Part shown: positions 2,001-64,000 of the stretch, piece after piece | Numbering within the stretch: the first letter of the stretch is position 1 | How the letters are laid out: each line of letters starts with the position of its first letter | Assembly (NCBI GenBank): GCA_021030905.1 | Contig: JAGFMI010000025.1 | Span: 248,001 to 312,000 of the forward strand | Length of the DNA: 64,000 nucleotides | Direction: 5' to 3' | Origin: Pyrenula massariospora | Lineage: Eukaryota > Ascomycota > Eurotiomycetes > Pyrenulales > Pyrenulaceae | Notes under the pieces: generated by a model | What the model saw: the letters and a program-made list of their open reading frames with translations, nothing else | Told to the model about the DNA's origin: nothing | The model's database searches: none | Made by a program: the position numbers and the translations under genes

Positions 2001-5000
2001 TTAGCCTTCATCAAAGTCGTCGCGGGCCCTCTTTCTAGAGCCAGTTCCTGCAGTTAGGGTATCATGGTCCCCTTTGCCATTAGCGACAGCGGCATTCCCT
2101 AAGCCATTGGTTTTGGTGTCATCTGCAGAGTCATTAGTATCTCCAGCATCTGCTTCCTCAACTGATTTCGCATCGGTGTCCTCTTCTTCGTCATCGTCTT
2201 GCCCCTCGTCTTCCTCCTCGTCAGCTTCTGCGTCGCTATCATCGTCAACGCCATCTTCTTCATCGCTTTCATCGTCTTCACTTTGACTATCTCTGCTATC
2301 TTCCGCACCACTACTTTCTTCGTCTTCATCTTCTTTCTGGCCTCTTGACCTTTCTGCATCTTCGTGCATTTTCAAGCCAGAGCTGCGACCCCTTCTGAGA
2401 CTGCCTGTCGCACTACCAGGCGGCCCAAGAGACCCGTTCGGCGTTCTAAGACCGCTTGCAAGTCCATCACGATGGCGAGGAGAACTTCTTACTGGCATCA
2501 GTGGCTCTTGGGTCATGCCAGCGAGCGGCGTCGACAGCGCACTGGGAATACTACGCATCCCAGGTCTAAAGCCACCGAGACCGGTACGGCGACGACTTGA
2601 CTTCGTACGATTGAAAGCATTGATGACGGAGGTTGGTATTGGCGGAACGATTTGGTATCGCAGGGGAGGTATCTCATACTTAACGTGATCCAAGGCATAG
2701 CCGGATAGATCATTATTTTCGAACGGCTGACCTTCTCTTTGGTCTGATATATCCTGATGACTTGAGGCAGCGTGATCAACTCCATTTGATGCTGGGGTAG
2801 CGATATCGTTGATTTCTGGCGGAGACTGCAATAACGCGTAGTTTACAGCGGTGTCCAAGGCTGAAGTCGGGGGTGGACCAGGTACCGGATTAGTGTCCGT
2901 GAGAAGTCGAGGGTGTAATTCGTCGTGAATTGATGAAGGTTGCATCTGAGATGGTCGCACTGGTGAGGACGATGGCAGCGGAGGAGTCGAAGCTGATGAG
3001 TCGTTTGAGTGCCCAACACCGTTCACAAGCGGCATTTGGTCGTCTTGTGAAGAACTGTGGCCATTAGTAGCTTCTGTAGGTTCAGCGTCGGCGGTGTCTT
3101 CCTCGCTCTCCCTTGACTTTGCGAGCAACTCGCCATTTGGCTCCGTTTCGTCTGCAACGTAAGACGTCTTGGGCGGGGAGGCAATATCTTCGATATCTGC
3201 TTCTTGGCCTTCTCTAGGTGCCACGGTCTGCATTGGAGCGCTTTCTAAATGAGCGGCGTCACTCCTGCCCATGAGGTACGGTGTCCACTGTAGCAGATCC
3301 TCATTTAATTTTACGTTTCCACGGCGTTTGTCGTCGCTGACTAGCTTCTCATATAATTTTTTGTCATACCTGATGGCATAAGTGCCAGTCACAGGATCTC
3401 TGACCAAGGCGTATAATCTCTCAAGGGTATGCATGACGTCGTCGGCAGTCATCCCTGTTAGCTTCATGAGGTTCCGGACGGAGCACACAACAATTCCATT
3501 TCTAAGCAAGCACTTCGAGATACTTAGATCCCAGTATGCTCGATAGGCAGTGAGCCCCATGTCTGACAAAGGCTTTTCAGGCGACCCTTCCTTTCCCTCG
3601 ATGCGGGTCAGAAGATATGAAAAATCAATCAAAAAGGTCGCATAACCCTTGCGTTGATGGATGGGCATCACAAGGATGCATGAGACGTTGTTGAGGCTAG
3701 TTGGTCTTTTCTCTTTGCTGAAGTATCCCACGAAATGGTAACCGTCATCATCAGATTCTGTGAGGATGTAGAACAAGAATGGTTCGACATCGTAGTAAAG
3801 TGTCTTCGATCCCAGAAACATCTTAGCCATGAGACATAGGCATTGACAGTACTCGGTCTTCTTGCGGCCATCAACTTCCCACACGGACACACTCCCATCA
3901 ACATAAATCTGGTCTCCTGGCGGATGTTTCGCTGGGCACTTGAGCTTGTGTCGATAAGCCACGTATTGGGAAGGCAGATACTTAAGACAGTATTCGCAGA
4001 TAAATAAACGCTTCTCGTGAGAGAATTCTTCTGGATACGGTGCAGCGTAGAAGCTGTCAATAACATGCTTCCCAAATTGTACCCTTTCAATTTTGCTGGT
4101 CGGATTCGAGTTTTTCTTATTTGTCCGGGATGACGGTAGTGCTGGCGTATCCGTTCGCTCTCCGTCTAATGCCTGAGAGGCTTGGCGTCGTTCTTCTTCG
4201 GCAATCAGGCGTGCGTTTTCAAAAAGATCGCGCGTCTGTCGCAAAGAGGTGGTGTCGATGGTACTCGAGTCTTCTGGTTGAAGCGTGCCGCTGTAGGGCT
4301 TGATGTGAGATGGTAGAGCAAGATCGCGGTGATTCTGAGGTATGGACGGAAATATGAGACTTCTTGTCGGCAGACACGGAAACCGATGGGATTGTGCTTG
4401 CAGACTGGGAGCAGGAGCAGGAAGCTTTCGTACCGCCTTCCGGATTGGTTTGGGCTGAGGTGGCTTTTTGAGGATGGCGTCTAATTTTGAGCTGCTGACT
4501 CGGAATTTCAGCACTAAGCTCGTACGTTGAGACTTATCACGTCCGCCTTTCTCGATCGTTGCAGTTGGGGGAGACTGAATTGCATGACGTAGGCTGGCAC
4601 GCCTAGAAGGACGCGAAGACATTCTTGGTGGTTGAGAGGCCACAATTGTATCCTCACCCAGCTCGTCGGCAGATGCAGATGCCTGGGTATGACCATGGCC
4701 AGCCGGGAAAGACCGCTCAGCTGAAGCAGCTTTTGGGGTGGCTTTTCTGCGACGCTTCTCAGCCACGGGTGACGGTTCGCCTGTAGGTGACTTTCTCTTC
4801 CTAAGATTAGGCCCGTTCCCGTCTTCCTCTACTAATAATAGCTGAGCAAACACTGAGTGCTGGCCAGGTTTTTGAACGCCCCTGGACACAGGCAAAAGAT
4901 CTTTGAGAATCCTGGAGGAAGAGGTCCGTGGGCGAGTTGGCTTCGTTGATGTAGCACCTAGGCTTTGATTTCCAGAAGTGTTTTTGAAACAGGTTGGGCA

Positions 5001-5696
5001 TCTCCATGTGTCTTGATTGACGTTGGATTCATTAGCCATTGCACAAAAGTGATGAGCCCGGTTGCCGCAAGATTCACATGTGAGATAGATCTGCGAATCC
5101 GTCTCTGGGCCTGGGCCCTCATCTTCACCGTACCGGCAATAGACACACGTGCTTGGGTCAACGTCGATCTCTGATTGCGATTCACTTTCGTGACCCGAAG
5201 ACGCAGACGTAACTGCTTCCTCTACATCTTCTGCTTCTGAGGCGGAGGCAGATGGAGAGCTCTCTGAATCGTTGTCGCCTCCGACCTCTTCAGCATAGCT
5301 TTCACTACCACTCTCTGACTCTTCCGATTCGTCTTCTCCCTCATCGTCCTCTTCAGACGGGACAGATTTTGAATGCCTTTCAGTGTGACTATTGTACTCT
5401 TTATCGCTGTTATTCTCGACAGCGTCTTGGTCTGACTCGGACTCTTCTGCTTCTGATGATGCTGGAGTGGTGTCGGAAGCCGAGCCTTGTTCATCGTTCT
5501 CCTCAGCATCGTCAGCCTCTGGACTTTGCTTGCCTTCGCTCTCTTCCGAGCTTGACTTTTTCCCCGAGCTTGAGCTCTTGCTTCCATGCTCTTCAATCGC
5601 GCCTGCCATTATGTCCTCATCACCGTCAGCATCAGCGTCGCCCCTCAGATCTTCTGTCATAAGGTTGAGCTCTGATTCTCGTAGTGGTGGTGGCAT
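2001..5696 (-). CDS. SAS3: MYST-family histone acetyltransferase, SAS3-type (NuA3 catalytic subunit)
   Basis: A single uninterrupted 1231-codon frame. Residues 1-180 are an acidic Ser/Glu/Asp-rich region. A PHD-type zinc finger lies at about 184-236 with the paired cysteines CVYC, CESC and CPTC. A basic disordered linker follows. The MYST catalytic domain is at about 540-805: its C2HC zinc finger is C567, C570, H583 and C587, the catalytic cysteine is C673 in NVSCILVMP, the acetyl-CoA loop is QRKGYA at 681-686, and the catalytic Glu is probably E707. The C-terminal 400 residues are disordered and end in a very acidic stretch before a basic RKRAR. In yeast, Sas3 acetylates H3K14 and H3K23 within NuA3. 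The fused PHD finger and long acidic tail favour SAS3/MOZ type over ESA1, which would carry a chromodomain. It diverges from NDUFA1 across about 650 bp. Confidence 0.93.
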   Translation of the reverse strand: MPPPLRESELNLMTEDLRGDADADGDEDIMAGAIEEHGSKSSSSGKKSSSEESEGKQSPEADDAEENDEQGSASDTTPASSEAEESESDQDAVENNSDKEYNSHTERHSKSVPSEEDDEGEDESEESESGSESYAEEVGGDNDSESSPSASASEAEDVEEAVTSASSGHESESQSEIDVDPSTCVYCRYGEDEGPGPETDSQIYLTCESCGNRAHHFCAMANESNVNQDTWRCPTCFKNTSGNQSLGATSTKPTRPRTSSSRILKDLLPVSRGVQKPGQHSVFAQLLLVEEDGNGPNLRKRKSPTGEPSPVAEKRRRKATPKAASAERSFPAGHGHTQASASADELGEDTIVASQPPRMSSRPSRRASLRHAIQSPPTATIEKGGRDKSQRTSLVLKFRVSSSKLDAILKKPPQPKPIRKAVRKLPAPAPSLQAQSHRFPCLPTRSLIFPSIPQNHRDLALPSHIKPYSGTLQPEDSSTIDTTSLRQTRDLFENARLIAEEERRQASQALDGERTDTPALPSSRTNKKNSNPTSKIERVQFGKHVIDSFYAAPYPEEFSHEKRLFICEYCLKYLPSQYVAYRHKLKCPAKHPPGDQIYVDGSVSVWEVDGRKKTEYCQCLCLMAKMFLGSKTLYYDVEPFLFYILTESDDDGYHFVGYFSKEKRPTSLNNVSCILVMPIHQRKGYATFLIDFSYLLTRIEGKEGSPEKPLSDMGLTAYRAYWDLSISKCLLRNGIVVCSVRNLMKLTGMTADDVMHTLERLYALVRDPVTGTYAIRYDKKLYEKLVSDDKRRGNVKLNEDLLQWTPYLMGRSDAAHLESAPMQTVAPREGQEADIEDIASPPKTSYVADETEPNGELLAKSRESEEDTADAEPTEATNGHSSSQDDQMPLVNGVGHSNDSSASTPPLPSSSPVRPSQMQPSSIHDELHPRLLTDTNPVPGPPPTSALDTAVNYALLQSPPEINDIATPASNGVDHAASSHQDISDQREGQPFENNDLSGYALDHVKYEIPPLRYQIVPPIPTSVINAFNRTKSSRRRTGLGGFRPGMRSIPSALSTPLAGMTQEPLMPVRSSPRHRDGLASGLRTPNGSLGPPGSATGSLRRGRSSGLKMHEDAERSRGQKEDEDEESSGAEDSRDSQSEDDESDEEDGVDDDSDAEADEEEDEGQDDDEEEDTDAKSVEEADAGDTNDSADDTKTNGLGNAAVANGKGDHDTLTAGTGSRKRARDDFDEG

Positions 5697-6350
5697 GTCG
5701 ATTGATATTCGGTCGCATGTAGATCGGTTTTCGAGGATCAGAGGCTTGTCTTGAATTCCGTACTCGGCTCCTGCTTTGATAGGAAGATGTTGGCAGCTTC
5801 ATCAGAAAGAGACGACACAAGGAATCACGGTCGCTAGAGATAGGACTAATGGACAAGTTGGTCGCAAAGCCTAGAGGAAACGCTTGAAACGTCGGGTACT
5901 ACTCAGGTTGCAAGGCGTCAAAGATCCAGCGCTTATCCGGCATTGTGAACATCTCTGAAATTTGATTGTTACTAGTCGCATCGTCAGTGGGGTGTCAGTT
6001 CGACGAGCACGGTCGGCGACGACGCGCTTTGGGTGCAAATTTTGGGCGCGCACATCATCCGAACACCGAATGCTAGACATACCTTATGAGCGACGCGTAA
6101 TATTCGCATCGTTGCGGCTTTTTGGCTGCTTCCTTATTCAAGGCCTACAAATCTTCTCCGCTGCCGTGCGAGATACCTTGAGGACGGTGCTGAGTTATCA
6201 CGCTCAAGGGGAGAAAGGAAGCGAGCCGATTGGCTGCTGAGGTGGCCGCATCTCCACCCTGAGGGGCAGCTTGCCTTGTGTCGCGTATCTCGACTCTACG
6301 ATTCCAGTCCAGGCCATACAACAAATCTATCTGCCCTATAGACGCACAAA
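5697..6350. promoter_or_regulatory. Divergent promoter between SAS3 and NDUFA1 genes
   Basis: The only sequence separating the start codons of two divergent genes, so both promoters must lie here. No clear TATA box or named element was identified. Short frames in this stretch do not resemble protein. Confidence 0.5.
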
Positions 6351-6809
6351 ATGGGTGTGCCATTCGAGGCGCTACTGCCATATGGCATCATGATCACAGT
6401 CAGAGCCACTCTCTCGTCGTTTCCCGCTACTTGCTGAGAGTCTGCAGATGTTCACCATCACCGGGATGGGCCTATCGGCAACCAAATTCTACACTAACAA
6501 CCGCAAGAGGGCAAGAAGAGGCCTGGACGCGTGGGACAGAGTTAGTCACCAAGATATTTATCGAAGGACCTGCGCTAACAAATTTATGTAGCAAAGTGAA
6601 AAAGCCTCCCTTGCTGGGGATCTTGGAAACTGACGTAAATCTAGTGATGGCCAGAGACATGCGGCTTACAGGCGTTTGGCGAGGACAAACAGACAATCAT
6701 GAGGCACCGCTTGGCTTCGAACTGAATAACCCTTGGAAGGTGAGGGCTTGGAATAACATCAGATCGTCTTGACTGACATCAAAACCAGCTTGAAGACAGA
6801 ATCTACTAG
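6351..6809 (+). CDS. NADH:ubiquinone oxidoreductase (complex I) subunit NDUFA1/MWFE-type, five exons
   Basis: Rebuilt exons are 6351-6398, 6448-6540, 6592-6595, 6645-6739 and 6789-6809, giving 261 nt and 86 aa. The protein starts MGVPFEALLPYGIMIT, has a hydrophobic N-terminal segment, then RKRARRGLDAWDRQMMARD, RLTGVWRGQTDN, FELNNPWK and a terminal LEDRIY. This matches the small fungal complex I membrane-arm subunit homologous to mammalian MWFE. Introns 2-4 have strong signals: GTTAGT with GCTAACA and TATGTAG; GTGAAA with CTGAC and ATCTAG; GTGAGG with CTGAC and ACCAG. Intron 1 has a weaker GTCAGA donor. Exon 3 is only four bases (CAAA) and supplies the Gln plus the first base of Met in the conserved DRQMM. 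A 164-codon frame starting in this region merely reads through introns. The gene converges on the NAT gene 24 bp downstream. Confidence 0.87.
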
Positions 6810-6833
6810 ATGGCGGCATGATGATATATCCCT

Positions 6834-7992
6834 CTATATCAGGCGTTCAAGGATGGGCACTTGCCACTTACCACTTTTCAAAATTCTAACCCTTCCCTTA
6901 GCGGATAAATAAAATAGAGAAGAGATTGATATTATCATACCTAGTTCCTTGAGCTCCGAGACCATGTTTCGGATTCCCCAGATTTCTTCCTCCGTCAGGT
7001 CGATCCCGAACCACTCCTTTAGGACCTTTAGTCGGTCGTCTTCATCGCGACATTTCTTCAGAAGCTCAGTTGTACCAGACAACTGTCTTTTAAGTTCGTC
7101 CCCCACCAAACTTAAACTTCCAAGAGGATCGTCAGTGCTTTCGTCCAGAATAATCTTGGTCAGAACTAGTCGATACGTGAACCAACTGGTCCTGCTTTGG
7201 CTAGTCCTAAAATTCATGACCTCATAGTCCTGCGGAAAGAATTCGAGCTCCGGAAAACAATATGCTGCAGTCCATGGGCTTTCTTTGTCTTTTCGAATCT
7301 CAAATACCCAGAGCCTCTGCGATGCAATACTACCGGAAATGTTTCGATATGACAAACGACCTTCTGAAGGCGAAACGTCCGTGATCCATGCCCCGTCTCT
7401 TAGCTCGATGGGATGGCAGGCTGTGGAACCTCCAAAGCCAACGTCGACCTGCTTCGGTCAGCTTGCCTCTCGTTGTACAGCGCTCTTCCTAACCATGTAT
7501 CTTTGGTTATTAATTGCGACCAAGAGAATCATGTGACTCCTACCAGCTTGTAAATATTTGACAATTTCAAGCTTCTTTCGAGCTTACCCACCAGCCCGTG
7601 AAGCCATCCTTGACCTTACCCCTAGATTCTACAAATCTGCTGATCCTACCTCCAGTCGTAAGGACATCGTAACCACAACTTCGCAAAACTGTCGCGAAGA
7701 AGGCGTTATTTTCAAGACAGTAGCCCCCTAATTTCCTTCGTACAATCTTGTGAAACAGGGCTTGTTGTTCAAGAGATATAGTGTGATGTCGCGAATAGTG
7801 AAGCGCTATGTTGCCAAATGGTACGGCTGCCATCTGTTTCCGCTGGAGCCAGTCCAGAGTCTTGAGAGGCTCCTGCTCCTTTGCTTTTCGAACGTCTTCA
7901 ACTGTTTTCCATGGATTCCCTTGGGCTATGAACTGCAGATACTCTGCAATCTGGGCTTGGCTGTAAGTTGAATATGCAAGCTCTACCGCCAT
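6834..7992 (-). CDS. Arylamine N-acetyltransferase (NAT)
   Basis: Exons are 7992-7592, 7539-7494 and 7448-6834, giving 1062 nt and 353 aa. The NAT catalytic triad is complete: C92 in KLGGYCLENN, H136 in WSHMILLV and D151 in VDVGFGG. The His falls in the 46-nt middle exon and the Asp opens exon 3, so only the spliced product has a full triad. The first donor is GTGGGT; the nearby GTAAGC puts the next exon out of frame. The enzyme transfers acetyl or a related acyl group from CoA to arylamines; fungal members detoxify aromatic amines and benzoxazolinone-type compounds. The 3' end is ambiguous: a 55-nt stretch with GTATGA donor and TTAG acceptor could be a third intron, ending the protein at 6878 after ELEF and removing the unusual hydrophobic tail. 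Confidence 0.9.
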
Positions 7993-62092: not shown

Positions 62093-64000
62093 ATGGCTGC
62101 CGAGGACCAGGAATTTGTGATGCTCGATGCGAGTGACATCCAAGGCTTCAACGAAGAAGGCGTATTGCCTTTATCGACTGAGGAGATATCCGAAGTACGA
62201 AAATGGCTGGCACCTACAGATTATGCTGCCGCGTCCAGCGAGTTTGGAAAGCACAGAGCCAGCCACCTCGCCGGCACCGGTGCCTGGATATTCTCCAATG
62301 AGCAATACCAACAGTGGCACACATCGAAACAAGGTGCTCTATGGCTGAAAGCTGTTGCAGGCGCCGGAAAGTCGGTGATTGCCGCATCCCTCATCTCAAA
62401 GCTCTCCACCGAGGAGAATGCCCCTGTTCTATATTTCTTCTTTCGTCACATAGTCTCAGCCAACCAAAAGCCCGAGTCTCTCGTTCGGGACTACATAACA
62501 CAAGCACTAGAGTCTTGCCCAGATTTGCAGCACAACTTGTACAAACTTGTCAAAGATCGACGGTCGCTGGACAGCGTATCGCTCAAAGAACTCTGGGAAA
62601 TGCTTGTTTCGGCCCTGGCGCGGTTACCTTGCGTCTACTGTGTCATAGACGCCCTTGATGAAATGGATGAGGGAAATGAGTCATTCATGGCAGATCTTCT
62701 TGCAATGGCGCAGAAGAAGTCTGCGGCGATCAAGGTACTGATGACAAGTCGTCCCTTACCTAGGATTGAAAAGGCACTTCGACATCCAAAAGTGTTGCAG
62801 ATTATTTTGCAACCGCAGTTCATTGATCCGGACATATCTGTCTACGTACGGCACTGCCTCAACAGATGTGAAGCTCCAGAAAAGCTTCGTTCACAAATTC
62901 ACCAGACAATGTGCAGGAAAGCGGCCGGCCATTTTCTGTATGCCCGATTAATGATGGATGAGCTTCTAGATTCGTCCAAAGGCTTGCTTTCTTGCGAGGA
63001 GAAACTGCTATCAGCTCTAGAACGATTACCTGCTCCAATGGCAGACATGTATTCGCAAATGCTTGTTGACCATTCTCAGCGGTCAGGCGTTTCCCAAACC
63101 CTTCAGCTCACAATTCTACAGTGGGTGACTCAAGCCGAGCGCCCACTTCGTTTGTTGGAGTTGTCATCTATGATTGATTTTCAAGAAGCTGCCCATAGCA
63201 TCAGCAAAGAGACTAAGCACGTCGTTCGCGAGGGTTGTGGTCCTCTGCTCGAAATACTCGAAGATGAGACAGTATGTCCTATCCACCATTCATTTACTGA
63301 ATACCTTTACGACTCTGCTCGTCAGGATGTTGAGCCAGGTGCTATCGGATTTCCGGTTCTTAATTACGAAGATGCTCAACGCACCATTACGACCACTTGT
63401 ATCAAGTACCTCGCTTCTGGCTGGCACAGTCGCTGCAAGGGCACTGGTGAAAAGACTTCGCCTAGCAGCAAAGTCGATGGAACAGGATCATTCAAACTTG
63501 AGTATCCCTTTCTTGACTACGCAGCGAAGTACTGGCATAAACACTTGCATAAGTCTGGTGCGCAAGATGAATCCATTACTGCAGAGGTGGATACCTTTCT
63601 TGTCAAGTAGCCTGATGCTATGCGGATCTGGCTGGAAATGACAGCCGAACGGACTTATCATCCTACAGACCATGGCCGCTTCAATACGTGGACGCCACTG
63701 CATGCTGCCGCCGACAGGGGTCTCTGTTTCTACGTTAAGCACCTGATTGAGACAGGACACGACATCGAATGTCTGAATTCGGAACAGCAAACGCCTATCG
63801 CTCGAGCCGCTCGCAATGGGCATGAAGGTGTTGTCAAAGTACTCCTACAACATGGGGCACACAATGATGAGGCTGACAATGTTGGCCTGAAGCCTATGCA
63901 CCATGCCGCTTCGCGGAACCACCATGGGGTTGTAAAGCTTCTGCTTCTGTCAGGCGTAGACCCGTACACACCGAAAACTAAAGAATATCCCGGGAGATTC
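62093..64000 (+). CDS. NACHT-ankyrin (NLR-like) protein, interrupted by in-frame TAG and cut by window end
   Basis: The first part (62093-63610) encodes 505 aa: an N-terminal segment ending ASHLAGTGAWIF, Walker A AVAGAGKS (K93), Walker B YCVIDALDE (186-190), the sensor-like VLMTSRPLPRIE, and a winged-helix-like region with HHSFTEYLYD. The frame stops at TAG (63608-63610) after VDTFLVK, then continues in the same frame for 390 nt to the window end with PDAMRIWLEMTAERTYHP and three ankyrin repeats (TPLHAAADRGL, TPIARAARNGHEGVVKVLL, KPMHHAASRNHHGVVKLLL). The protein should therefore be much longer. Fungal NACHT-ankyrin proteins are STAND ATPases related to incompatibility and innate-immunity-like responses. 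The stop could be a nonsense mutation, a sequencing error, or be recoded. Confidence 0.85.

Follow-up and report, generated by a model that had tools for sequence, protein, structure and literature searches.

The NDUFA1 locus and its neighbours

The window, by which we mean the whole 64-kb stretch of DNA that was analysed, contains a predicted gene for the complex I subunit NDUFA1 (MWFE) on the forward strand at 6351-6809. The gene model comprises five exons with an open frame of 261 nt, encoding a protein of 86 aa (MGVPFEALLPYGIMITMFTITGMGLSATKFYTNNRKRARRGLDAWDRQMMARDMRLTGVWRGQTDNHEAPLGFELNNPWKLEDRIY), and its third exon is a putative microexon of only four bases, CAAA. Divergent from this gene, a MYST-family histone acetyltransferase (MOZ_SAS, zf-MYST) is encoded by one uninterrupted reading frame of 1231 aa (2001-5696, minus strand), which starts upstream of NDUFA1 at a distance of ~650 bases from the start of that gene. 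An arylamine N-acetyltransferase-like ORF (Pfam Acetyltransf_2) is convergent to NDUFA1 and occupies 6834-7355 on the minus strand, with a further piece at 7567-7992. Since the NDUFA1 stop codon (6809) lies 24 bases from the end of this ORF (6834), the 3' untranslated ends of the two genes probably overlap. In a distant part of the window, an ORF at 62093-63610 (plus strand) matches the NPHP3_N and NACHT domains; proteins of this type are known as NLR-like in fungi.

The predicted five-exon product matched the Pfam family MWFE (PF15879) over the full profile (1-55 of 55) with 86.4 bits, the cut-off being 27. It also matched two solved complex I subunits, 7zm7_D (NDUFA1, which we take to be from Chaetomium; E=1.2e-27, 58% identity) and 6gcs_D (NIMM, presumably from Yarrowia; E=2.4e-17, 46% identity). 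Such levels of identity would suit a filamentous ascomycete. An intron-blind search of the whole assembly (37.8 Mb, 33 contigs) for the MWFE family, in which two candidates were scored, gave a single match, located in exon 2 of this gene. The earlier note had named the gene as complex I NDUFA1, and the full-profile match together with the similarity to 7zm7_D bears this out; the identity of the encoded protein as NDUFA1/MWFE is sound. Outside this assembly, no orthologous gene was found among viral contigs, which gave one 12-residue match (L022) that we took as chance, and a scan of prokaryote genome contigs for an orthologue gave 35 pattern matches, none of which was confirmed.

The exon-intron structure is given in Table 1. 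Every base that the earlier note quoted between 6540 and 6645 is present at the position it assigned. Exon 2 ends with GAC AGA at 6540, the segment assigned to intron 2 runs from GTTAGT to GCTAACAAATTTATGTAG, that of intron 3 runs from GTGAAA to CTGACGTAAATCTAG, and exon 4 opens with TGATGGCC at 6645. CAAA comprises the Gln48 codon followed by the opening base of the Met49 codon. The claims about its effect on the protein were confirmed by splice translation, in which inclusion of CAAA gave DRQMMARD and kept the 261 nt in frame, and joining 6540 directly to 6645 placed an in-frame TGA directly after DR. Retention of intron 2 or intron 3 gave a stop codon as well. Intron 1 has an unusual donor and is without a CTRAC branch motif, yet it is demanded by homology.

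Table 1. Predicted structure of the NDUFA1 gene (positions in the window), with the rival intron discussed in the text
Feature	Position	Strand	Basis
Exon 1 (MGVPFEALLPYGIMIT)	6351..6398	+	Translation; homology to 7zm7_D and 6gcs_D
Intron 1, 49 nt; donor GTCAGA, acceptor CTGCAG	6399..6447	+	Needed for continuity of the homologous protein
Exon 2, ending ...LDAWDR	6448..6540	+	Genomic Pfam MWFE match; splice translation
Intron 2, 51 nt; donor GTTAGT, branch GCTAAC, acceptor TATGTAG	6541..6591	+	Splice-site percentiles
Exon 3, putative microexon CAAA, 4 nt	6592..6595	+	Frame; orthologue Gln; best of 102 models
Intron 3, 49 nt; donor GTGAAA (weak), branch CTGAC, acceptor ATCTAG	6596..6644	+	Splice-site percentiles
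Exon 4, starting TG-ATG-GCC (MARDMRLTG...)	6645..6739	+	Translation; homology
Intron 4, 49 nt; donor GTGAGG	6740..6788	+	Splice translation
Exon 5 (LEDRIY) and stop TAG	6789..6809	+	Splice translation
Rival single intron, donor GTCACC, giving Val48; not the preferred reading	6545..6644	+	Donor percentile; model score

Splice sites and alternative structures between exons 2 and 4

We consider it very likely, with a probability of roughly 0.88 on the sequence evidence, that CAAA serves as a 4-nt coding microexon of nuclear NDUFA1 and is used constitutively. An ultra-short microexon was taken to be an exon of at most 15 nt whose two flanking introns each have a donor, a branch site and an acceptor, and which is needed for the conserved frame; it would also have to appear in the mature mRNA, and its exon structure would be expected to recur in relatives. 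The candidate is 4 nt long and both of its flanking introns carry all three signals, the second donor being weak. Skipping it leads to TGA, but a rival donor restores the frame too, with Val in place of Gln. In this rival structure, a single 100-nt intron with the donor GTCACC replaces introns 2 and 3, exon 2 is longer by GTTA, and there is no microexon. The open frame is again 261 nt, the protein length is unchanged and the sole change is Gln48 to Val. Because this structure keeps the frame, the choice narrows to Gln48 through a 4-nt exon versus Val48 through one 100-nt intron; the predicted mRNA would contain ...GACAGACAAATGATGG... in the former case and GACAGAGTTATGATGG in the latter.

Splice-site strength was assessed with a simple gene and splice model trained on 262 kb of the assembly, of which 198 kb came from outside the window and the rest was the window itself. 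Donor and acceptor weights were re-estimated over six rounds from two starting points, of which the flat start kept 88 of 99 predicted introns and the weak start kept 80 of 92. It should be noted that the reference introns behind all percentiles given here are themselves predictions and that the training sequence includes the window. The NDUFA1 introns should nevertheless be absent from training, as its coding score of ~6 falls well below the 30 required to call a gene, and the locus is missing from the gene list. A first coding model for the splice statistics had been dropped with just 12 of 176 introns usable, as had a donor-agnostic pass with noisy donors (96 of 127 introns usable). A motif survey near 140 three-prime sites, which found GTGAAA once (1.2 expected) and GTCACC once (1.0 expected), was likewise set aside as too noisy to judge single hexamers.

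The donor consensus learned from the predicted introns was GTAAGT. The donor of intron 2 ranked at the 73rd (flat) and 64th (weak) percentile, with only 1.4-1.5% of all GTs equal or better, and its acceptor ranked at the 99th percentile. The donor of intron 3 ranked at the 11th (flat) and 9th (weak) percentile, with 32-33% of all GTs equal or better, and its acceptor ranked at the 45th and 31st percentile, respectively. The description of the pair in the earlier note as two well-formed introns thus holds for intron 2, which is strong at both sites, but not for intron 3, with its weak donor and middling acceptor. Since intron 1 of the same gene has imperfect signals, the weakness of GTGAAA does not count heavily against the microexon. 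The rival donor GTCACC ranked at the 5th (flat) and 4th (weak) percentile, with 48-56% of all GTs scoring at least as well. Intron 1 likewise has a donor with C at position +3, so that this feature alone is not fatal to the rival. Intron length is compatible with either structure: 49 of the 88 predicted introns were no longer than 60 nt, so lengths of 49-51 nt are common in the genome sample, and 13 of the 88 had at least 99 nt, so a length of 100 nt is not rare. Under the microexon reading, the GT at 6545 would need no other cause, being positions +5 and +6 of the donor GTTAGT.

To rank the possible structures, we enumerated the ways of joining exon 2 to exon 4 through one or two introns, allowing intron lengths of 40-160 nt and either GT or GC as donor; 102 of these structures were in frame and free of stop codons. 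The total score combined coding, donor, acceptor, branch, length and intron-rate terms with similarity to two orthologues. Because the training set was small and unverified and tiny exons carried no penalty, these scores represent a ranking rather than exact odds; with both parameter sets they placed the 4-nt-exon model first of the 102 and the single 100-nt intron second, 6.1 and 6.6 nats lower. The 4-nt-exon model was also first by splice score alone, 3.7-4.2 nats above the single 100-nt intron. Its lead over the next structure by this measure was 0.2 and 0.0 nats, which is a near tie, and the near-tied structure destroys the conserved core of NDUFA1. No structure with a GC donor was found among the best 8 by total score or the best 6 by splice score.

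Comparison with orthologous proteins also bears on the choice. At the position of residue 48, 7zm7_D (WDKQQMERD) and 6gcs_D (WDSQMMERD), the closest two of the solved orthologues, both have Gln; so does 7b0n_a, which is near-identical to 6gcs_D, so the support comes in effect from two sequences. Gln is not universal, as the more distant relatives 9iho_a and 5gpn_Ac have Tyr (WDKYFAVRD) and Asn (YQWNLMERD), respectively. Of the two leading structures, only the microexon model yields the Gln of the two closest orthologues. The Pfam MWFE score was 86.4 bits with Gln, 84.4 bits with Val and 75.7 bits with the residue missing, meaning that the change to Val costs just 2 bits. A product lacking the residue would be expected if the gene had a single 104-nt intron at 6541-6644 and no microexon, and the assembly carried wrong bases in exon 4. 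Nothing direct favours such an assembly error, which would leave the conserved core one residue short at a score of 75.7 instead of 86.4 bits, and the residue is present in both of the closest solved orthologues. We regard it as hardly credible.

To estimate the chance expectation, 100,000 dinucleotide-preserving shuffles of 6551-6626 were generated. The first ten bases of 6541-6644 (GTTAGTCACC) and the last 18, a 3' end that contains CTGAC, were held fixed, and the strong donor was thus not charged to chance. By criteria that were set after the case had been seen, a frame-compatible, stop-free exon of 1-13 nt between AG and GT arose in 11.8% of the shuffles. When a YAG acceptor and CTRAC branch motif were also required, a stop-free exon of 1, 4, 7, 10 or 13 nt arose in 125 of the 100,000, and any 4-nt exon with the same acceptor and branch motifs arose in 41. 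A Gln-coding 4-nt exon with these motifs was seen in 3, and in one of these the donor scored no lower than GTGAAA. The set of signals around the microexon is in excess of chance expectation. With the single 100-nt intron, GTTAGT, GCTAAC, TATGTAG and the Gln-coding 4-nt exon would all have to be accidental, as in those 3 shuffles. Taking this together with its weak donor, its lower total score and the loss of the orthologue Gln, we think the single 100-nt intron improbable. The microexon reading put forward in the earlier note is supported, both by its first place among the 102 in-frame structures and by the Gln of the orthologues.

Introns 2 and 3 almost adjoin, like the parts of fungal stwintrons, in which a splice signal of one intron is split by the other and the two are removed in turn, with no exon left between them. 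Against a stwintron at this locus, introns 2 and 3 each carry complete signals. Furthermore, when nested pairs were enumerated with the outer donor placed within 6536-6559, the outer acceptor within 6636-6661 and an inner intron of at least 40 nt, no pair in these ranges kept both AWDR and RDMRL, and the only product to retain them was that of the plain 6545-6644 intron. The stwintron was thus rejected, and its probability is close to negligible.

Proposed splicing of the putative microexon

We infer that CAAA is included in the mRNA constitutively, through intron definition and sequential removal of its flanking introns. The introns of 51 and 49 nt would each be recognised across themselves, which is possible because all three signals (donor, branch site, acceptor) are present in each. 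As an exon of four bases is too small to carry the complexes of its two splice sites simultaneously, the two introns would be removed one after the other, in either order, and once the first was gone CAAA would sit inside an exon of normal size. The exon would then supply Gln48, begin the Met49 codon and restore the frame. Its omission would put a stop at codon 48, and for this reason inclusion is expected to be constitutive. The microexon would demand no new mechanism.

Both forms of the transcript could also be made, with the microexon form as the main one and the Val48 or skipped form as a minor or regulated one, an arrangement that is compatible with the microexon reading. Two in-frame products are possible and the donor of intron 3 is weak, but leaky use of a tandem donor would be ordinary noise, and we consider this arrangement unlikely. 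It is also quite doubtful that the obligatory 4-nt exon, with slow two-step splicing, acts as a control point for complex I, at which the choice of splicing sets the amount of the subunit or produces two forms of NDUFA1. If that were true, inclusion would give Gln48, the donor four bases downstream would give a near-identical Val48 protein, and skipping would give a stop.

Known microexons and recovery by gene prediction

The kind of exon predicted here is already known, and its length of 4 nt is extreme for a fungus within the literature surveyed; smaller fungal microexons may exist in further literature. Neither a 4-nt fungal exon nor a gene structure of fungal NDUFA1 was found in the open-licence literature among the matches listed. 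Trichoderma virens is a filamentous ascomycete. Its transcription factor gene Xlr2 has an RNA-seq-supported, glucose-regulated microexon of 20 nt that is absent from the annotated model (PMC11121469). In contrast to this exon, the NDUFA1 exon has 4 nt and is most likely constitutive. The P450 genes of Phanerochaete chrysosporium are interrupted by many introns of 45-55 bp and contain tiny exons, the shortest one listed having 6 bp (PMC1184071). These genes resemble the present case in being fungal and in having a tiny exon among short introns. They differ in that their exons come from a basidiomycete and consist of whole codons (2-10 aa), whereas the NDUFA1 exon of 4 nt is not a multiple of three.

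In plants, PMC8831610 reports 1-nt microexons in APC11 and VPS55 that were confirmed by RNA-seq and RT-PCR and were missing from reference annotations, and it argues that the flanking introns compete and are removed separately. Like the plant microexons of at most 15 nt in this account, the predicted NDUFA1 exon is an ultra-short, frame-restoring exon between two introns in a conserved housekeeping gene and is prone to loss in annotation. The plant exons are RNA-confirmed and conserved; the NDUFA1 case is fungal, has introns of ~50 nt and is a prediction from sequence. Stwintrons are closely packed fungal introns removed in sequence (PMC5639578), and the stwintron gene rtnA of Neurospora crassa has a small exon of 33 nt (PMC6616335). 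In NDUFA1, unlike in these examples, no splice signal is interrupted and four coding bases stay between the introns.

If confirmed, the microexon would mean that a fungus with short introns splices a four-base exon in a gene of the respiratory chain, and it would offer a clean test of intron definition where two introns nearly touch. It would also be a warning that exons of such size are easily dropped from fungal gene models. The earlier note had held that automated annotation would very likely miss or mangle this gene. When the gene model was run freely over 6201-6950 with the gene-start cost left at its default and with no guidance from protein similarity, it recovered introns 6541-6591, 6596-6644 and 6740-6788, and with them the 4-nt exon, for either parameter set. 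The same run started the gene at 6448 rather than 6351 and so missed exon 1, and at two cheaper gene-start settings the NDUFA1 gene was split. These errors of the free runs make the expectation of the earlier note plausible, and the Xlr2 exon of 20 nt is a published case of a fungal microexon lost in annotation. Elsewhere, the smallest internal exon predicted between kept introns had 19 nt (58 exons flat, 52 weak), suggesting that exons below this size are either rare in the genome or missed by the model.
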